The notes under the pieces: generated by a model | What the model saw: the letters and a program-made list of their open reading frames with translations, nothing else | Databases searched by the model: none | Told to the model about the DNA's origin: nothing | Program-made: the position numbers and the translations under genes | Part shown: in pieces, positions 9,851 through 17,571 of the stretch | Position numbering within the stretch: the stretch's first letter is position 1 | Layout of the letters: each line of letters opens with the position of its first letter | Origin: Sphingomonas sp. | GTDB lineage: Bacteria; Pseudomonadota; Alphaproteobacteria; Sphingomonadales; Sphingomonadaceae | Assembly: GCA_013816595.1 (NCBI GenBank) | Contig: JACDEB010000014.1 | Span: 1-35,037, forward strand | Direction: 5' to 3' | Length of the DNA: 35,037 nt

Positions 9851-12545
9851 CGCCTTGTCCTTTCACATCTTGCCACCGCTGAGCAATCCTGTGCCGCGCC
9901 ATATCGATCGCCGCAACCAGCGATTGCCAGTCGTCGAAGCCGCACAGGCTCGCCACCAGCCCGCGCGAAAGTTCGGCCGGTTCCATCGGTCCCGGAGCGA
10001 CCAGCCGGAGCACGACCAGGACCGCGCTCAACAGCCGCAAATCGGGATCGGCCTCGGCATCGATCAACCCCGCTTCGGCCAGTTCGGCAATGGCCACCTC
10101 GAGCCGCGGATCGAGGCCCTTGTGCCTGGTCAATTGAAGCGTGTGGACCGCGAATTCGAGGTCGACCAGTCCGCCGCTGCCAAGCTTTATGTCAAACGTG
10201 CCGGCAGGCGGTTTGTGCGCCGCCATGTCGGCCCGCATCTTCGCCGCCGCCGAGCGCACCTGCTTCGGATCCGACGGGGCCGTGAGGATCGCGCAAACCA
10301 GATCGCGCATCTTTTTGCGCGCCGCTGGCGATCCGGTCAGCGGCCGTGCCCGGCACAGCGCCATATGCTCCCACGTCCATGCTTCTTCGCGCTGGTAGGT
10401 TTCAAAGGCACTCACCGCGACCGCGAGCATGCCTTGGGCGCCTTGCGGGCGAAGGCGGGTATCGACATCGTAGAGCGGGCCGCTTGCGGTCGGGACTGCA
10501 AGCGCCGCCGAAACCCGGCTCGCCAGGCGATTGTAATAATCCGCCGCGGGCAGCGACTTGGCACCGGTCGAGGCGGCGCCGTCGGGCGCGTCGTAGAGAT
10601 AGATGAGGTCGAGGTCGGAGGCATTGGTCAGCGCCCGACCGCCCAATCGCCCGAGCGCCAGAACGATCAGCTCGCCGCCCGCGACGCGACCGTGGGATGC
10701 CTTGAATTCGCGCGCGGTCAAAGCGGACAATGCGACGATGGTCCCTTCGGCAAGGTCGCTATAGCCTTCGGCAATGGTGATCGGATCGCGGTAGCCGGCG
10801 ATCAGCTGAACGCCCAAAGCGAAGCGCCGTTCGCCGACCATCAACCGGATCCGCTCGAGCGCTTCGCCATAGGCCAGGCTCTTCGCCGCCGCCCCCAGAT
10901 TGGCCGCGGTCGCTTGGGCGTCGGGCGGCTCGGCGAAGCTCGACTGGTCGATCAAACCGTCGAGCAGGCCCGGGCGGCGGCCGACTTGCTCGGCCAGCGC
11001 CGGGGCATGGGCCAGGATCAGTGCCAGCGTGCTCGCCAGCCGCGGCTGCGCCTCGAGCAATCGGAACAGGTTCACGCCGCTCGACATCTTGTCGACGATG
11101 TCGGCGAAGCGATTGAGCGCATGGCCCTGGTCGGGGCTATCGGCGATCGCGCGCAGAAGCGTCGGAAGCATCGCTTCGAACGCGGTTCGGGCCGCTGGCG
11201 AGCGCAGCGACCGCGCCCTGCCCGATCGCCAGTCGCCGATCAGCCGGACGGCCTGACCGACATCGGCAAAGCGCATTGCAGCGACTTCGCGGGCAAGGAT
11301 ATCGGGATCGTTCGACAGGATTTCGCCGGCTTCAGTGACCAGCCCGTCAAAGGCTTCGCCGACCGCTTCCTGGTGCGGCGCAATCCAGCCGAGGAAGGCG
11401 GCGCCGTCGCCAAAGCCCGACAGCGCCGCGAGATTATCGATCTCCGCTCGATTGACCGGCAGGCGATGTTCCTGCTTGTCCTCGACCATCTGGATGCGGT
11501 GCTCGGCGGTGCGCAGGACCCGGTAGCCGGCGCCGATCGCATCGGCGACTGCGGGCTCGAGCCGTCCGCCCTTCGCCAGTGCATCGAGCGCATCGAGAGT
11601 TGCCGGAGCACGCAGTTCGGGTTCGCGGCCGCCATGGATCAATTGCTGGACCTGGGTGAAGAATTCGGCCTCGCGGATTCCGCCGCGCCCGCGCTTCAGG
11701 TCGAAACCGGGGCCAAATTGCTGGCCTTGAGCGAAATGGTCGCGGATCCTCAGGCTGATCGAGCGGATTTCCTCGATCGCTCCGAAATCGAGCGCCCGGC
11801 GCCAGATGAACGGCCGGATTTCGCCGAGGAACCGATTGCCCAGCGCCCGATCCCCGGCGGCGGCGCGGGCGCGGATGAACGCCGCCCGCTCCCACGACAG
11901 CGCCTGGCTTTCGTAATAGGAAATCGCCGCGTCGACGGGGAGGACGATCGGCGTCACTTCGGGTGACGGGCGAAGGCGCAAATCGACCCGCGCGACATAG
12001 CCGTCCTCGGTCCGTTGCTGGAGCAGTTCGACCAGCCGCCGGCCAACCCGAACCGCGGCTTCGCCCGGATCGTCGCGGTCGCGCCGCGCAAGGACCGCCG
12101 GGTCGAACAATAATTGTAGATCGACGTCGGACGAATAATTGAGCTCGCGGCTGCCCAATTTGCCCAAGGCGATGACCGCGAAACCGTCGGTGGTCGCGCC
12201 GGGCAGCCGCTCGTCGATCGCCAGCGCCAATGCGCGATCGATCGCCTGGTCGGCAAAGTCGCTGAGGACCGCCGTCACCCGCTCAAGCGGCAACTCTTCG
12301 CTAAGGTCGCCGAGCGCCACCGCAAGCGCGAGCGCGTGTCGCTGTCGGCGCAAGGCGACTGCAACCGGTTCGCCGCCGTCCGCGAGCGCAGCGGCAATCG
12401 CCGCTTCCGCCCCCTTGGCGACGAAAATGGCTCCAATCTGGTCGAATTTCTTCAATGCCTGAGCGAGGAACGGGCTATGCTTCGTAGCGCGTTCGACACT
12501 TTGTGCCCGTCGCGCTGTCGGCGAAATTTGCTGTGGCTCGCGCAT
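9840..12545 (-). CDS. glnE: Glutamine synthetase adenylyltransferase/adenylyl-removing enzyme
   Basis: Bifunctional GlnE, which adenylylates and deadenylylates glutamine synthetase in answer to PII signals. The 901-residue product has two nucleotidyltransferase domains: the N-terminal adenylyl-removing one with LGSRELNYSSDVDLQLLF, and the C-terminal adenylyl-transferring one with LGRLGGRALTNASDLDLIYLY, each carrying the D-x-D metal motif; a C-terminal helical bundle follows each. The ATG at 12543-12545 is chosen; a TTG 39 bases upstream (12584) is also in frame, and neither has a strong ribosome site. It overlaps bcp by 11 nt. A long open frame on the opposite strand is a codon shadow. Confidence 0.96.
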   Translation of the reverse strand: MREPQQISPTARRAQSVERATKHSPFLAQALKKFDQIGAIFVAKGAEAAIAAALADGGEPVAVALRRQRHALALAVALGDLSEELPLERVTAVLSDFADQAIDRALALAIDERLPGATTDGFAVIALGKLGSRELNYSSDVDLQLLFDPAVLARRDRDDPGEAAVRVGRRLVELLQQRTEDGYVARVDLRLRPSPEVTPIVLPVDAAISYYESQALSWERAAFIRARAAAGDRALGNRFLGEIRPFIWRRALDFGAIEEIRSISLRIRDHFAQGQQFGPGFDLKRGRGGIREAEFFTQVQQLIHGGREPELRAPATLDALDALAKGGRLEPAVADAIGAGYRVLRTAEHRIQMVEDKQEHRLPVNRAEIDNLAALSGFGDGAAFLGWIAPHQEAVGEAFDGLVTEAGEILSNDPDILAREVAAMRFADVGQAVRLIGDWRSGRARSLRSPAARTAFEAMLPTLLRAIADSPDQGHALNRFADIVDKMSSGVNLFRLLEAQPRLASTLALILAHAPALAEQVGRRPGLLDGLIDQSSFAEPPDAQATAANLGAAAKSLAYGEALERIRLMVGERRFALGVQLIAGYRDPITIAEGYSDLAEGTIVALSALTAREFKASHGRVAGGELIVLALGRLGGRALTNASDLDLIYLYDAPDGAASTGAKSLPAADYYNRLASRVSAALAVPTASGPLYDVDTRLRPQGAQGMLAVAVSAFETYQREEAWTWEHMALCRARPLTGSPAARKKMRDLVCAILTAPSDPKQVRSAAAKMRADMAAHKPPAGTFDIKLGSGGLVDLEFAVHTLQLTRHKGLDPRLEVAIAELAEAGLIDAEADPDLRLLSAVLVVLRLVAPGPMEPAELSRGLVASLCGFDDWQSLVAAIDMARHRIAQRWQDVKGQGDDR

Positions 12546-12616: not shown

Positions 12617-12796
12617 ATGTACGACGAACATTCTTCTGAACCGGGCGAAATTCCGTCGCTTGATCGCGAGATCATCCGAGTCGATTTCCCGCTTGCCAAT
12701 GCCGGAATTGCGGCCGCGCTCCGGCGTGCCTTCCAGGCCGCTGCCGATGAGCCGACCGACCGCGATTTCGAATCCTTGCTGCGCCGCCTCAACTAA
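12617..12796 (+). CDS. Small NepR-like protein, candidate second anti-sigma factor
   Basis: A 59-residue protein. Its C-terminal part, ALRRAFQAAADEPTDRDF followed by ESLLRRLN (about 35-59), aligns without gaps to NepR at 14870 (ALRTVYDDTLRESVPDEF then TDLLGKLD), and both proteins stop right after this motif. The pattern LR-x2-(Y/F)-x5-E-P-x4-F-x2-LL-x2-L is the NepR signature that forms the two helices wrapping EcfG or the sigma-like domain of PhyR. The first 30 residues are polar and unrelated. The ATG at 12617 follows AGGA by six bases; ATG 12614 is an alternative. It is convergent with ecfG (14-base gap). A NepR paralog is inferred, not proven; chance similarity in so short a protein is possible. 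Confidence 0.62.
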   Translation: MYDEHSSEPGEIPSLDREIIRVDFPLANAGIAAALRRAFQAAADEPTDRDFESLLRRLN

Positions 12797-13548: not shown

Positions 13549-13704
13549 TTAGGCCCTGGTTACCAAGATGATGATGATAAATAAAATCACCACCAGCGCT
13601 GTACCGATGCCCAGAACATAGCGCGCGACCCCCGGGGTCGACCCCGCCCGAGCCTCGGTCGTGGTCTCGTGAATCTGCTTTTCGTTCTGATTCTGTTCGG
13701 TCAT
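13549..13704 (-). CDS. 51-residue single-pass membrane protein in the stress locus
   Basis: A small reading frame of 51 codons. Residues 1-25 are polar (MTEQNQNEKQIHETTTEARA at the start); residues about 28-49 are one hydrophobic helix rich in Val, Leu and Ile, ending TRA. It would be a one-TM inner-membrane protein with a cytoplasmic or periplasmic N-tail. I know no family for it. It lies between phyR and ecfG on their strand, and a perfect EcfG promoter (13741-13765) ends 37 bases before its ATG, so it should be among the most direct stress-induced genes. The ribosome site is weak. It could modulate a membrane sensor or be a short stress peptide; that is speculation. Clean composition and promoter position argue that it is real. 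Confidence 0.7.
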   Translation of the reverse strand: MTEQNQNEKQIHETTTEARAGSTPGVARYVLGIGTALVVILFIIIILVTRA

Positions 13705-14695: not shown

Positions 14696-14720
14696 GGAAC
14701 AAAGCTGTGCCCCTTTGGTT
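14696..14720 (+). promoter_or_regulatory. EcfG-type promoter upstream of nepR-phyP
   Basis: GGAAC at 14696-14700, 16 bases, then GGTT at 14717-14720: one mismatch at the weakest position of the -10 element (consensus CGTT). It would give nepR a leader of about 140 bases. The direction and location fit autoregulation of the anti-sigma factor. Confidence 0.65.
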
Positions 14721-14856: not shown

Positions 14857-14862
14857 GGGGGA
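14857..14862 (+). promoter_or_regulatory. Ribosome binding site for the nepR TTG start
   Basis: GGGGGA seven bases before the TTG at 14870. The frame is closed by a TGA at 14834, and no ATG lies before codon 24, so TTG is the likely start. Its run of G is complementary to the C-rich loops of the RNA at 16700-16801. Confidence 0.6.
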
Positions 14863-14869
14863 CGAGAGG

Positions 14870-15061
14870 TTGAGTGCCAAAAAGCAAAGCAAGTCCGACA
14901 AAGAGGGCGCCGCCACTCCGCCGCCACCACCGCCGCCCATGGACAGGAATAAAAAAGGACGCAGCAGCGATCTCGGTCGTGCGTTGCGCACGGTCTATGA
15001 CGACACGCTGCGCGAATCGGTTCCCGACGAGTTCACGGATCTTCTCGGCAAGCTCGACTGA
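14870..15061 (+). CDS. nepR: Anti-sigma factor NepR
   Basis: NepR holds EcfG inactive until phosphorylated PhyR takes it away. The 63-residue product has a charged N-terminus, a run of seven prolines (about 17-23), and the NepR core LGRALRTVYDDTLRESVPDE followed by FTDLLGKLD at the C-terminus. The TTG start is set by GGGGGA at 14857-14862. It is 21 bases upstream of the phyP-like gene and divergent from phyR, the usual GSR arrangement in sphingomonads. The core motif has Ser where most NepR proteins have the Pro of E-P. Confidence 0.92.
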   Translation: MSAKKQSKSDKEGAATPPPPPPPMDRNKKGRSSDLGRALRTVYDDTLRESVPDEFTDLLGKLD

Positions 15062-15082: not shown

Positions 15083-16615
15083 GTGAGCGTCGCCAGCCGT
15101 TTTGAAGGTCTGCCGACCGCTGCCAAGCTGCTGATCATTCTGTCGCTGGTGATGCTGCCGATCGGCATTGTCCTAACGGCGCTCGGGTCGGCCGGGATCA
15201 ATGAAGCCAAAACGGCACAGCGCGATCGCGCCAATGACCAGGGCAGGCTGACCGCAAAGGCGATCGAAAGTCTGCTCGCGCGCAACGCGCTTGCGCTTCG
15301 CGTCGCCGCCAACGGAGCGATGGTCAACGGCACCGCCCAGGCGTGCGAGGAAGCGCGGCAATCGCTGTCGATTGCACCCGCATTGGCACAGAATTTCGAG
15401 CTTGATACCGTCGAGGGAATGAAAATCTGTTCGGTCGGAACACCGATCGACACCGGTCGAATGCCACTGGTCGCCCCCGGTGACGTCAAGGTTGCGATTG
15501 CTCCCGACGCCCATGCCGTCGCCATCCGCATGGGCGTAATCGGCGGGATGGCGACGGGTGTCGTGCCGATCGAAGAGATCAAGGCGGCGGCTCGTGAAGC
15601 CGGAACGACGTTCGATTCGCTGTCGATTAGTGGTCAGGGCACCAGCGAGCCGCTGGCGATCCAGGCCGCTCCCATTGGGCGGAGGCTTTACTATAGCGAA
15701 TGGCCGCTTGGTACGCGCCAGGTCATCGCCCGGGTTGGCACGCGCGATTCCACCCTTGCGGTTCCCGAGCGCCTGCTTCTTCTGCTGCCGTTGTTGATGT
15801 GGATCGCGGCGGCATTGATCACCTGGCTCCTTGTCACCCGACTGCTCATTCGACCGCTGCGCCGGCTGGAGCGGGCGATCAGCGATTTCCGGCCCGGCGA
15901 GACCGAGCTCGACCTTCCGGATCGGCTTGGTCCTTCGGCCGAAATCCAGCAATTGCGCGAGAGTTTCGGCCGGGCGATCTCGCGCATCGACGATAGCGAC
16001 CGCGAAATGACCAATGCGCTTGAAGGTCAGCGGCGGCTGGTTCGTGAAGTCCACCACCGCGTGAAGAACAACCTCCAGGTCGTTGCCTCGCTGCTCAACA
16101 TCCACGGCCGCAATGCCGAATCCGTCGAAGCGCGCTCCGCCTATCTGGCGATCGGCCGCCGGGTCGGGGCGCTGTCGGTGGTCCACCGCAACCACTTCGC
16201 GGAGATGGAAGAGAATCGCGGCATCGCCCTTCGCCCATTATTGTCCGAGCTTGCCGCCGAACTGCGCTCAAGCGCGCCTGACAATGCCCGCGCACTGGTC
16301 ATCGAGCTCGACGTCGATACCGTTCACACCACCCAGGATGTGGCGGTCGCGATCGCCTTCCTGGTAACTGAAATCGTCGAATATGCGATGCTTCATTGCC
16401 CGGGCGAGTCGGTTGAAATCTCGCTTCGAAGGACCAGCGAACTGACTGCTCGATTGTCGCTTGGCAACCAGGCCCTCAATCCGGCCGAGGACGGCGAAAA
16501 GGAAAAGGTCCAGTTCGAGCGAATCGTCGCTGGTCTGGCCAAGCAATTGCGCTCGACCCTGGAGCGGAAATTAGGACGCTACAGCGTCGAGCTGCCGATT
16601 TTTCCGCCAAAATAA
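15083..16615 (+). CDS. phyP: PhyP-like HisKA_2 regulator with degenerate ATPase domain
   Basis: A 510-residue membrane protein built like a sensor kinase. TM1 is about 15-36, an extracytoplasmic sensor region about 40-225, TM2 about 230-255, then a HAMP-like linker and a HisKA_2 domain with REVHHRVKNNLQVVASLLN (His324/325). The following ATP-binding domain is degenerate: the N-box position reads FLVTEIVEYA (Glu430 where Asn is expected), and no D-x-G-x-G or Gly-rich lid is visible in the last 80 residues. In Sphingomonas melonis Fr1 the gene in this place, PhyP, is a negative regulator that acts as a phosphatase of PhyR; missing ATPase motifs fit that. It starts with GTG 21 bases after nepR. 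A kinase for PhyR must be elsewhere. Confidence 0.85.
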   Translation: MSVASRFEGLPTAAKLLIILSLVMLPIGIVLTALGSAGINEAKTAQRDRANDQGRLTAKAIESLLARNALALRVAANGAMVNGTAQACEEARQSLSIAPALAQNFELDTVEGMKICSVGTPIDTGRMPLVAPGDVKVAIAPDAHAVAIRMGVIGGMATGVVPIEEIKAAAREAGTTFDSLSISGQGTSEPLAIQAAPIGRRLYYSEWPLGTRQVIARVGTRDSTLAVPERLLLLLPLLMWIAAALITWLLVTRLLIRPLRRLERAISDFRPGETELDLPDRLGPSAEIQQLRESFGRAISRIDDSDREMTNALEGQRRLVREVHHRVKNNLQVVASLLNIHGRNAESVEARSAYLAIGRRVGALSVVHRNHFAEMEENRGIALRPLLSELAAELRSSAPDNARALVIELDVDTVHTTQDVAVAIAFLVTEIVEYAMLHCPGESVEISLRRTSELTARLSLGNQALNPAEDGEKEKVQFERIVAGLAKQLRSTLERKLGRYSVELPIFPPK

Positions 16616-16631
16616 CCGCGGATTTTCGCGG
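16616..16631 (+). terminator. Weak hairpin directly after phyP
   Basis: A 5-bp GC stem (16616-16620 with 16627-16631) with loop GATTTT starts right after the TAA, followed by TCGTTTC. It may attenuate read-through into the small RNA gene; the stem is short. Confidence 0.35.
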
Positions 16632-16667
16632 TCGTTTCGGTCCTGGCAAAAAAACTTCCGATTGCTT

Positions 16668-16693
16668 GGAACCGGGTTCGACGTTGCGACGTT
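16668..16693 (+). promoter_or_regulatory. EcfG-dependent promoter of the candidate small RNA (perfect consensus)
   Basis: GGAAC (16668-16672), 17 bases, CGTT (16690-16693) fits GGAAC-N16/17-CGTT exactly. No reading frame follows it on the plus strand before the terminator at 16747-16801, so the transcript would be a short RNA starting near 16700. Confidence 0.82.
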
Positions 16694-16699
16694 TTACTA

Positions 16700-16801
16700 T
16701 TCGGATAGCGAATTTATGCCCCCCCGCTCTCGCTATCCGACAATATGGGCCCGGAACCGCTACCCTCCCCCCCGGTAGCGCTTCCGGGCCCCTCATTTTT
16801 T
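16700..16801 (+). ncRNA. Candidate EcfG-controlled small RNA with two C-rich hairpin loops
   Basis: A transcript of about 100 nt is predicted from the EcfG promoter to the T-tract. Hairpin 1: 16701-16711 pairs perfectly (11 bp) with 16730-16740; its 18-nt loop holds seven C in a row (16719-16725). Hairpin 2: 16747-16764 pairs with 16774-16791 (17 of 18 positions, one C-C mismatch); its loop CTCCCCCCC holds another run of seven C. TCATTTTTT follows. Exposed C-rich loops usually pair with Shine-Dalgarno sequences. The Caulobacter GSR sRNA GsrN also has a sigma-T/EcfG promoter and a C-rich loop that binds katG mRNA, so this may be a functional counterpart; homology is not shown. There is no plausible ORF inside. 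Confidence 0.78.
16747..16801 (+). terminator. Intrinsic terminator forming the 3' hairpin of the small RNA
   Basis: A stem of 17 pairs with one mismatch, a 9-nt C-rich loop, and six T at 16796-16801. It ends the plus-strand transcript exactly at the tatC stop codon. On the minus strand the same hairpin could close tatC, but no T-tract follows there. Confidence 0.85.
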
Positions 16802-17571
16802 CAGACCTCTGAATCTTTGCTCTTCGGCGCTGCTCGAGCCGCGCGCCAATGGGTCAGGCGGATCGCCAATATGGCGAATTCGTAGAGCGAATAGAGCGGC
16901 ACCAATAGCAGCAGCATCGAGACCGCGTCGGGCGGGGTCAGAACCGCCGCCACCCCAGCGCATGCGACAATCGCGTAGCGCCGCGAGCTGGTCAGCTGGG
17001 CCAGGCTGACGATGTTCGCGCGCTCGAGGATCATCAGCAGTACCGGAGACAGGAACGCGACTCCAAAGCCGAACAGGAAGCGGGTGACGAAATTGAGGTA
17101 ATTGCCAATCGCCGGGAGCGCTTCCTGGGTGACTCCGCCGATATTTCCTTCGAAGCCGAGCAGGAATTTGAGCGCCCACGGCATGGCGACATAATAAGCG
17201 AACGCCGCGCCGCCGCCAAAAAAGAACGGAGTTATCAGCAAAAACGGCAGAAACGCCTTCTTTTCCTTCACATACAGGCCCGGCGCGACGAACCTCCACA
17301 ATTGCGTCGCGAACACCGGGAAGGCGAGCATCAGCGCCGCGAAGAACGCCACTTTGACCTCGACGAAAAAGGCTTCGAAGATGTCGGTGTAGATCAGCTT
17401 GCCCTGCCCCGCGGCGAGCAATGGCTGGACCAGAACGGCAAAAATCGGCCTGGCGAAGTACAGGCAGATAAAGAATCCCGAGAGCAAGGTCGCGACTACC
17501 CACAACAGGCGCCGGCGAAGCTCGATCAGATGGTCGAGCAGCGGGGCCTTGCTGTCATCAGGATCGGTCAC
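16801..17571 (-). CDS. tatC: Sec-independent translocase subunit TatC
   Basis: TatC, the multi-spanning receptor of the twin-arginine pathway that exports folded proteins. The 256-residue product begins with the conserved cytoplasmic LLDHLIELRRRLLWV (about 11-25), followed by six hydrophobic segments; ELRRR, the periplasmic IFEAFFVEVKVAFF and the FGFGVAFLSPV segment are typical. It starts at GTG (17569-17571), overlapping the tatB stop as GTGA, and is the last gene of the long minus-strand run. The C-terminal tail is short and charged. Confidence 0.97.
   Translation of the reverse strand: MTDPDDSKAPLLDHLIELRRRLLWVVATLLSGFFICLYFARPIFAVLVQPLLAAGQGKLIYTDIFEAFFVEVKVAFFAALMLAFPVFATQLWRFVAPGLYVKEKKAFLPFLLITPFFFGGGAAFAYYVAMPWALKFLLGFEGNIGGVTQEALPAIGNYLNFVTRFLFGFGVAFLSPVLLMILERANIVSLAQLTSSRRYAIVACAGVAAVLTPPDAVSMLLLLVPLYSLYEFAILAIRLTHWRAARAAPKSKDSEV

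Follow-up and report, generated by a model that had tools for sequence, protein, structure and literature searches.

A conserved, predicted small RNA with two C-rich hairpin loops and an EcfG-type promoter beside nepR–phyP in sphingomonads

The gap between a phyP-like histidine kinase gene and tatC in a Sphingomonas sp. genome apparently encodes a conserved non-coding RNA. In the window, which denotes the whole 35,037-nt stretch of DNA analysed, the gap carries an EcfG-type promoter motif and two hairpins whose predicted structure exposes a run of C in each loop. The promoter motif, the hairpins and the locus are conserved among relatives, the stems covary, and the adjacent nepR gene has G-rich leaders in the clade that bears the element. 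In the reading preferred here, to which a probability of about 0.55 is given, the element would be transcribed in dependence on EcfG as a small RNA of ~100 nt in the general stress response (GSR), its C loops would pair with G-rich Shine-Dalgarno sites, and nepR would be a likely target, with repression as the outcome.

The RNA gene and its surroundings

The gap (16616–16800) contains the promoter motif and both hairpins. The features of the locus, in window coordinates, are:

14857–14862, plus strand: GGGGGA in the nepR leader, ahead of the TTG at 14870; candidate target site
14870–15061, plus strand: nepR, anti-sigma factor gene, TTG start
15083–16615, plus strand: phyP-like HWE/HisKA_2 histidine kinase gene, 5' of the RNA, assigned by its Pfam domains
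16668–16693, plus strand: EcfG-type promoter motif, with the -35 GGAAC at 16668–16672, a 17-nt spacer and the -10 CGTT at 16690–16693
16699–16801, plus strand: predicted small RNA of ~100 nt, ends estimated
16701–16740, plus strand: hairpin 1, an 11-bp perfect stem (16701–16711/16730–16740)
16719–16725, plus strand: C7 in the loop of hairpin 1 (predicted structure)
16747–16791, plus strand: hairpin 2, 17 paired positions and a single mismatch (16747–16764/16774–16791)
16767–16773, plus strand: C7 in the loop of hairpin 2 (predicted structure)
16796–16801, plus strand: T6 following hairpin 2 and reaching the tatC stop codon; putative intrinsic terminator
16801–17571, minus strand: tatC, convergent with the RNA (Pfam TatC, 4.9e-66)

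The kinase gene matches the Pfam domains HisKA_2 (1.9e-16), HWE_HK (3.7e-6) and HAMP (2.4e-5), and the name phyP was taken over from the initial annotation of this DNA; PhyP is a negative regulator of PhyR. The frame at 14870–15061, which we take to be nepR from its C-terminal motif, is the first gene of a nepR–phyP pair directly 5' of the RNA gene, and an HMM seeded from it picked up nepR-like frames in relatives. The 5' end of the RNA was placed 6–8 nt past the CGTT and its 3' end after hairpin 2. Most BLAST matches within the genus span query positions 51–152, equivalent to window 16690–16791 (from the -10 element through the end of hairpin 2), and two covariance models, R1 and R2, align to 16696–16805.

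Two small frames near ecfG were also observed. A predicted membrane protein of 51 aa with one hydrophobic stretch lies between phyR and ecfG (13549–13704, minus strand), and a strict GGAAC-N16-CGTT starts just 5' of it, from 13765 on the minus strand; it may be a small protein under EcfG control, encoded ahead of ecfG. Between glnE and ecfG, a 59-aa frame (12617–12796, plus strand) is convergent with ecfG, and a loose GGAAC-N18-CGTT is found at 12467.

Conservation of promoter and structure within the genus

With 176 bp of the gap as query, BLAST found a strong homologue (E ≤ 1.8e-12) in 69 of 71 genus genomes, the source genome included; G055 gave no match and G058 gave chance-level matches only. 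The resulting genus alignment has 69 rows from 68 genomes, with two copies from G052 and with G060 left out at a contig end. Alignment A1 omits L001, a duplicate, and L045, which ends at a contig end.

The perfect GGAAC-N17-CGTT promoter that the initial annotation saw facing the gap was read as described. A first-order Markov model predicts 0.55 strict GGAAC-N16/17-CGTT matches in the window and two occur, which gives the motif no significance on its own; what is significant is its conservation. All 69 aligned genus rows with an upstream side carry it (N17 in 43, N16 in 26), at a nearly constant distance, 23–25 nt upstream of the G ahead of the first C-run. Of the more widely sampled relatives that share an exact hairpin 1 core, 108 have room upstream. 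The promoter is strict in 96 of these and relaxed in its -10 or spacing in 10, and two have GGAAC without a matching -10. From this motif we infer that EcfG would recognize the promoter.

The gap folds with a minimum free energy (MFE) of -52.3 kcal/mol (z = -8.0), and equal stability was reached in 0 of 200 shuffles, in agreement with the two stable hairpins first described, of 11 bp and of 18 positions with one mismatch. The C7 reported in each loop is likewise present. The hairpin 1 run is C7 in 65 of the 69 genus rows and 6, 8 or 9 C in the remaining four, while the hairpin 2 run varies from C7 to C11 (8–11 C in 68 of 69 rows) and spans 4 to 13 across the 91 sequences of the structural alignment described below. 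Loop bases are near-invariant in the genus alignment. The window reads AATTTATG at a site that is CCTTTTG in most relatives, which counts against the preferred reading.

The gap had also been described as free of reading frames, and a protein-coding reading was rejected: no frame is conserved, the ATG of the window loop is found in 3 of 69 rows, and the length of the C-run shifts one base at a time. An RNA on the minus strand was rejected as well, given that R1 scored 26.3 bits on the opposite strand versus 112.9, a weak match of the kind that near-palindromic hairpins would give. The T6 past hairpin 2 is real, but a run of T6 or longer stands at this place in only 8 of 69 genus rows. This makes the reading of it as a terminator weak, and a U-tract past the GC hairpin is absent as a genus trait across these rows despite its presence in the window.

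Covariation of the stems

Covariation was assessed in an alignment of 91 sequences (A4) fitted to the structure, comprising 12 from the genus, 58 fetched by the exact hairpin 1 core and 21 by model; L202 and L209 were excluded as likely gene-end terminators. Since 58 of the 91 rows were retrieved by that exact match, the conservation of hairpin 1 in A4 is inflated; the genus BLAST set was selected independently of the core. Changes on both sides were present in 24 of 27 stem pairs, each in at least one sequence. There were 179 double-change cells, compared to 38.8 in shuffles and 9–30 with the partners slid, and 96.1% of cells were pairing.

The helix of hairpin 1 showed a double change in all 10 modelled pairs and hairpin 2 in 14 of 15, in each case in at least one of the 91 sequences. 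In 62 of 89 sequences, however, the outermost hairpin 1 pair does not form, and no double change was seen in A4 for the two additional pairs that the MFE fold draws within the loop of this hairpin. Within the genus alone, a MAFFT alignment contained double changes in 7 of the 27 pairs.

Distribution beyond the genus

An exact scan with the 25-base core of hairpin 1 returned 109 stretches of named genomes, which overlap in part with the genomes of the genus and family sets. Of the 109 titles, the 80 listed belong to Sphingomonas, Sphingomicrobium, Stakelama, Sphingosinicella, Allosphingosinicella and Parasphingopyxis, to one 'Sphingomonas-like' isolate, or to MAGs of higher-rank name only. Sphingomonas leidyi DSM 4733 and Sphingomicrobium lutaoense DSM 24194 are two carriers of this core. 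Where the stretch left room, phyP lies 5' of the RNA on the same strand in 93 of 96, and tatC is convergent with it within 1.3 kb in 72 of 82.

Covariance-model searches across sphingomonads, proposed as a check in the initial annotation, matched 102 of 298 family genomes with R1 and 124 of 298, from 42 of 91 genera, with R2 (E-values rough), the family being taken as GTDB Sphingomonadaceae by inference; NCBI places Sphingomicrobium in Sphingomicrobiaceae. Stems and C loops are kept across related genomes, so the loss of both that would have spoken against the RNA was not found. The weakest R2 matches (E near 0.001–0.01) are doubtful. Among 40 family genomes without an R2 match, 35 have PhyR; the 700 nt past tatC were scanned in 30 of these 40, giving diverged copies in G117 and G089 and no copy within that distance in the other 28. 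The figure of 124 of 298 therefore omits some diverged copies, besides including doubtful matches.

Two model matches in two genera, L202:6001–6091 (G236) and L209:3001–3091 (a second match in G119), are GC-rich hairpins with C-rich loops that end frames apparently closing ...VGKI by eye; they look like C-loop terminators or 3'-UTR RNAs.

Among 387 genomes of the class, R2 at E ≤ 0.05 with stricter filters matched two of its own family (the source genome and G155) and, weakly, four outsiders. The best of the outsiders, G468 (7e-5), has no GGAAC within 60 nt upstream, and nothing convincing was found outside the family in this set. Rfam 15 gave no family at gathering score in the window, and a single tRNA was its sole match over 15 copy-bearing loci. 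Judged by these sequence searches, the RNA is a sphingomonad family absent from Rfam, in which it would merit an entry.

Distant and second copies

Further information came from 29 distant or second copies (L191–L227 minus L202, L209, L211–L215 and L219). The promoter is strict in 19, near in seven and missing in three (L197, L218 and L224). Both loops have five or more C in 24 of the 29, and one loop has a shorter or broken C-run in L197, L210, L222, L224 and L225. Several copies have stems unlike those of the window, for example L192, L220, L221, L222, L223, L226 and L227. Because promoter and C loops are kept on unrelated stems, it is these that selection appears mainly to hold.

The surroundings of some of these copies also differ. 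L220, L222, L223, L224 and L225 are convergent with tatC and have no phyP in the stretch examined, and second twin-C-loop copies were seen at a distance from the tatC locus in G281 (L210:3001–3103), G273 (L216), G080 (L192:6001–6098) and G314 (L218, with a poorer promoter); the other copy of G080, L217, adjoins nepR–phyP. In the first hairpin of L210 the stem differs but the loop is still CCTTTTGCCCCCCCGCTCTC. In hairpin 2 of two diverged members, L222 and L310, the unbroken C-run is replaced by CTCCTCCC, which resembles the CCUCCUCCC motif of the cuckoo RNAs.

The nepR leader as a candidate target

The GGGGGA described earlier as the nepR ribosome site is present, and nepR is the best local candidate target. 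In the window, the duplex of the nepR leader with the loop of hairpin 2 reaches -22.6 kcal/mol, matched or beaten by one of 29 mechanically called frames. Across the RNA-bearing clade, 68 of 103 distinct nepR leaders contain G5 or longer and 96 of 103 contain four or more G; nine neighbour genes have 0–2 G5 leaders each (44–117 leaders per gene). G5 or longer is found in 3 of 30 nepR leaders from genomes without a model match, a contrast in which the genomes are not phylogenetically independent, and G ≥ 5 in 6 of 28 diverged RNA carriers. Mean loop duplexes were -19.8 and -21.3 kcal/mol for nepR in the clade, and the neighbours ranged from -6.9 to -12.6 kcal/mol. This comparison favours nepR given that its starts were chosen by best Shine-Dalgarno and those of the neighbours by homology; the 3-of-30 contrast is free of this bias.

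Exceptions exist in both directions. G117 and G089, counted among the 30, carry a diverged RNA copy and only G2 in the nepR leader (L285, L286), and G095, where no RNA was found by tatC, has GGGGG (L228). The nepR leaders also pair best of the tested genes with the anti-Shine-Dalgarno sequence (mean -10.4), and some of the G-run signal is thereby accounted for by a strong ribosome site. Folded as a dimer, the complete RNA and the nepR leader gave -65.4 versus -64.9 kcal/mol summed, and this gain of 0.5 kcal/mol by itself lends no support to pairing. By best Shine-Dalgarno, nepR starts in the clade are TTG in 65 of 103 and ATG in three, compared to ATG in 20 of 30 genomes without a model match.

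A near-consensus EcfG promoter, GGAAC-N16-GGTT, is located at 14696 (plus strand) in the phyR–nepR intergenic region and points at nepR. With this motif 5' of the gene, transcription of nepR may be increased by EcfG, and the RNA would at the same time limit translation of its message.

A wider regulon was sought through GGGGGG-N2-11-ATG sites. In G000, G038 and G070 this pattern matched 46, 43 and 62 times, and its reverse 13, 7 and 18 times; the counts include overlaps, and the reversed pattern is a crude control given that GTA and ATG frequencies differ. Several sites precede secreted or envelope proteins predicted by eye. Of the distinct sites, 41 of 44 in the source genome and 37 of 37 in G038 were examined, yielding 23 and 30 usable frames, which share one orthologous pair (L402 and L440, peptidase-like by eye). 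The candidate regulon was set aside, being enriched over the reversed pattern but almost without conservation.

Proposed mechanism and alternatives

Under stress, freed EcfG would drive the RNA from its own promoter, and two rigid hairpins would present their C-rich loops for pairing with the G-rich Shine-Dalgarno regions of target mRNAs. Pairing would change the translation of the target, most simply by blocking the ribosome. With nepR as a likely target, less anti-sigma factor would be made and the stress response prolonged, a positive feedback. The sign of regulation could be the opposite, as the known target of the Caulobacter RNA GsrN is activated. The fuller proposal, that the twin C loops of an EcfG-made RNA block translation of NepR, and perhaps of a coupled phyP, so as to place an RNA-based positive feedback within the GSR locus of a broad bacterial group, is speculative and on balance rather unlikely. 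Under such feedback the stems would be free to change, while the C loops, the promoter and, often, a G-rich nepR leader with a weak start would be kept.

The main alternative retains the EcfG-driven C-loop RNA and directs it chiefly at other mRNAs, for example katG, by analogy with GsrN, or envelope-protein messages, which it may activate, the G-rich nepR leader being then no more than a strong ribosome site; we consider this a tentative but serious possibility. It would accommodate the exceptions to the nepR signal in both directions, and it draws on the excess of GGGGGG-N2-11-ATG over its reversed pattern, several of these sites lying before secreted or envelope proteins, and on the activation of katG by GsrN (PMC5869019, excerpts). 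These G6 sites, however, are hardly conserved, with one orthologous pair between two genomes. The nepR site, in contrast, occurs commonly throughout the clade.

It is improbable that the C-rich loops, instead of pairing with mRNAs, bind a protein or act as a sponge that captures a G-rich small RNA. Two equivalent loops would suit either function, and in Caulobacter the G/A-rich sponge RNA CrfA pairs with C/U-rich sibling RNAs (PMC12559287, excerpts), yet the drift of the hairpin 2 run from 4 to 13 C is easier to reconcile with pairing than with a protein site that depends on shape. A reading of the hairpins as nothing more than a terminator, serving phyP and on the opposite strand tatC, with no RNA acting in trans, would fit the convergent genes, the strong GC-rich hairpin and the T6 of the window, but is very improbable in view of the rarity of that T-run in the genus, the near-invariant loop bases, the conserved promoter inside the gap and the copies away from phyP that keep both promoter and loops.

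Comparison with known RNAs

The general stress response of alphaproteobacteria has one of its main models in the sphingomonads. Among open PMC papers, no title or abstract opening described this RNA, and no small RNA was found described in the sphingomonad response. Term searches of two papers on sphingomonad EcfG gave nothing on an EcfG-regulated small RNA in PMC6599016 and only a reference to SuhB in PMC7083833. A conserved RNA with an EcfG promoter beside nepR–phyP offers a concrete post-transcriptional arm of the stress response to test.

Other alphaproteobacterial RNAs share parts of this design. The ar14 or 'cuckoo' RNAs of Rhizobiales (RF02344) have a CCUCCUCCC motif in their hairpin loops, and have in common with the present RNA anti-Shine-Dalgarno-like C-rich motifs in two hairpin loops; the loops in the window lack CCUCCUCCC, and the promoter here is of EcfG type. 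The Rfam ar14 model scored 17.9 bits on the window versus a cut-off of 58.8 (E 0.16), and at a loose threshold Scr3202 scored 33.9 bits versus a cut-off of 52 (E 0.0017). Both are under their Rfam cut-offs, and the likeness was taken as chance between GC-rich twin hairpins. SisA–D (alphaR8) of Caulobacter also contain a stretch with an anti-Shine-Dalgarno signature, and overexpressed SisA represses many targets (PMC12559287, excerpts). Theirs is UUUCCUCCCU in a single-stranded stretch, whereas the C-runs here lie in two hairpin loops.

The closest parallel, already drawn in the initial annotation, is GsrN, an Hfq-stabilised RNA with a processed 5' isoform, known here from its description. Excerpts of PMC5869019 describe a sigma-T-dependent Caulobacter RNA of ~100 nt, with six tandem C in a 5' loop that pairs with the katG leader mRNA and activates it. 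The nepR mRNA co-purified with GsrN, with a predicted site GGGGGGCG; the authors report no evidence for regulation, and no effect of GsrN on sigT/NepR was detected (PMC5869019, excerpts). Its BLASTn homologues are limited to Caulobacteraceae, with putative gsrN-like RNAs in Rhizobiaceae (PMC5869019, excerpts).

As far as those excerpts go, the two RNAs have in common a length of ~100 nt, a promoter of a general-stress sigma factor (here a motif rather than an activity), an exposed C-run in the 5' loop (six C in GsrN, a predicted structure here), a gene that as a rule is near ecfG/nepR/phyR (some diverged copies here being by tatC without phyP, or elsewhere), and G-rich partners, with nepR mRNA in the GsrN pull-down and a candidate nepR site here. 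They differ in that the present RNA has two C-loop hairpins, while GsrN has one 5' C-loop and a second exposed 3' region. Erythrobacter litoralis belongs to the same order as the sphingomonads. It has no apparent gsrN-like gene according to a figure legend (PMC5869019, excerpts). As to relation in sequence or structure, GsrN was compared by description only, and R2 gave just the four weak matches outside the family among 387 class genomes. The analogy stands for design, and membership of the GsrN family does not follow from it, the model finding nothing convincing beyond the sphingomonad family: judged by this comparison, the RNA is GsrN-like in design and is probably not GsrN itself. Sphingomonads would then be a second lineage in which a stress sigma factor, a C-loop RNA and a G-rich nepR mRNA occur together.
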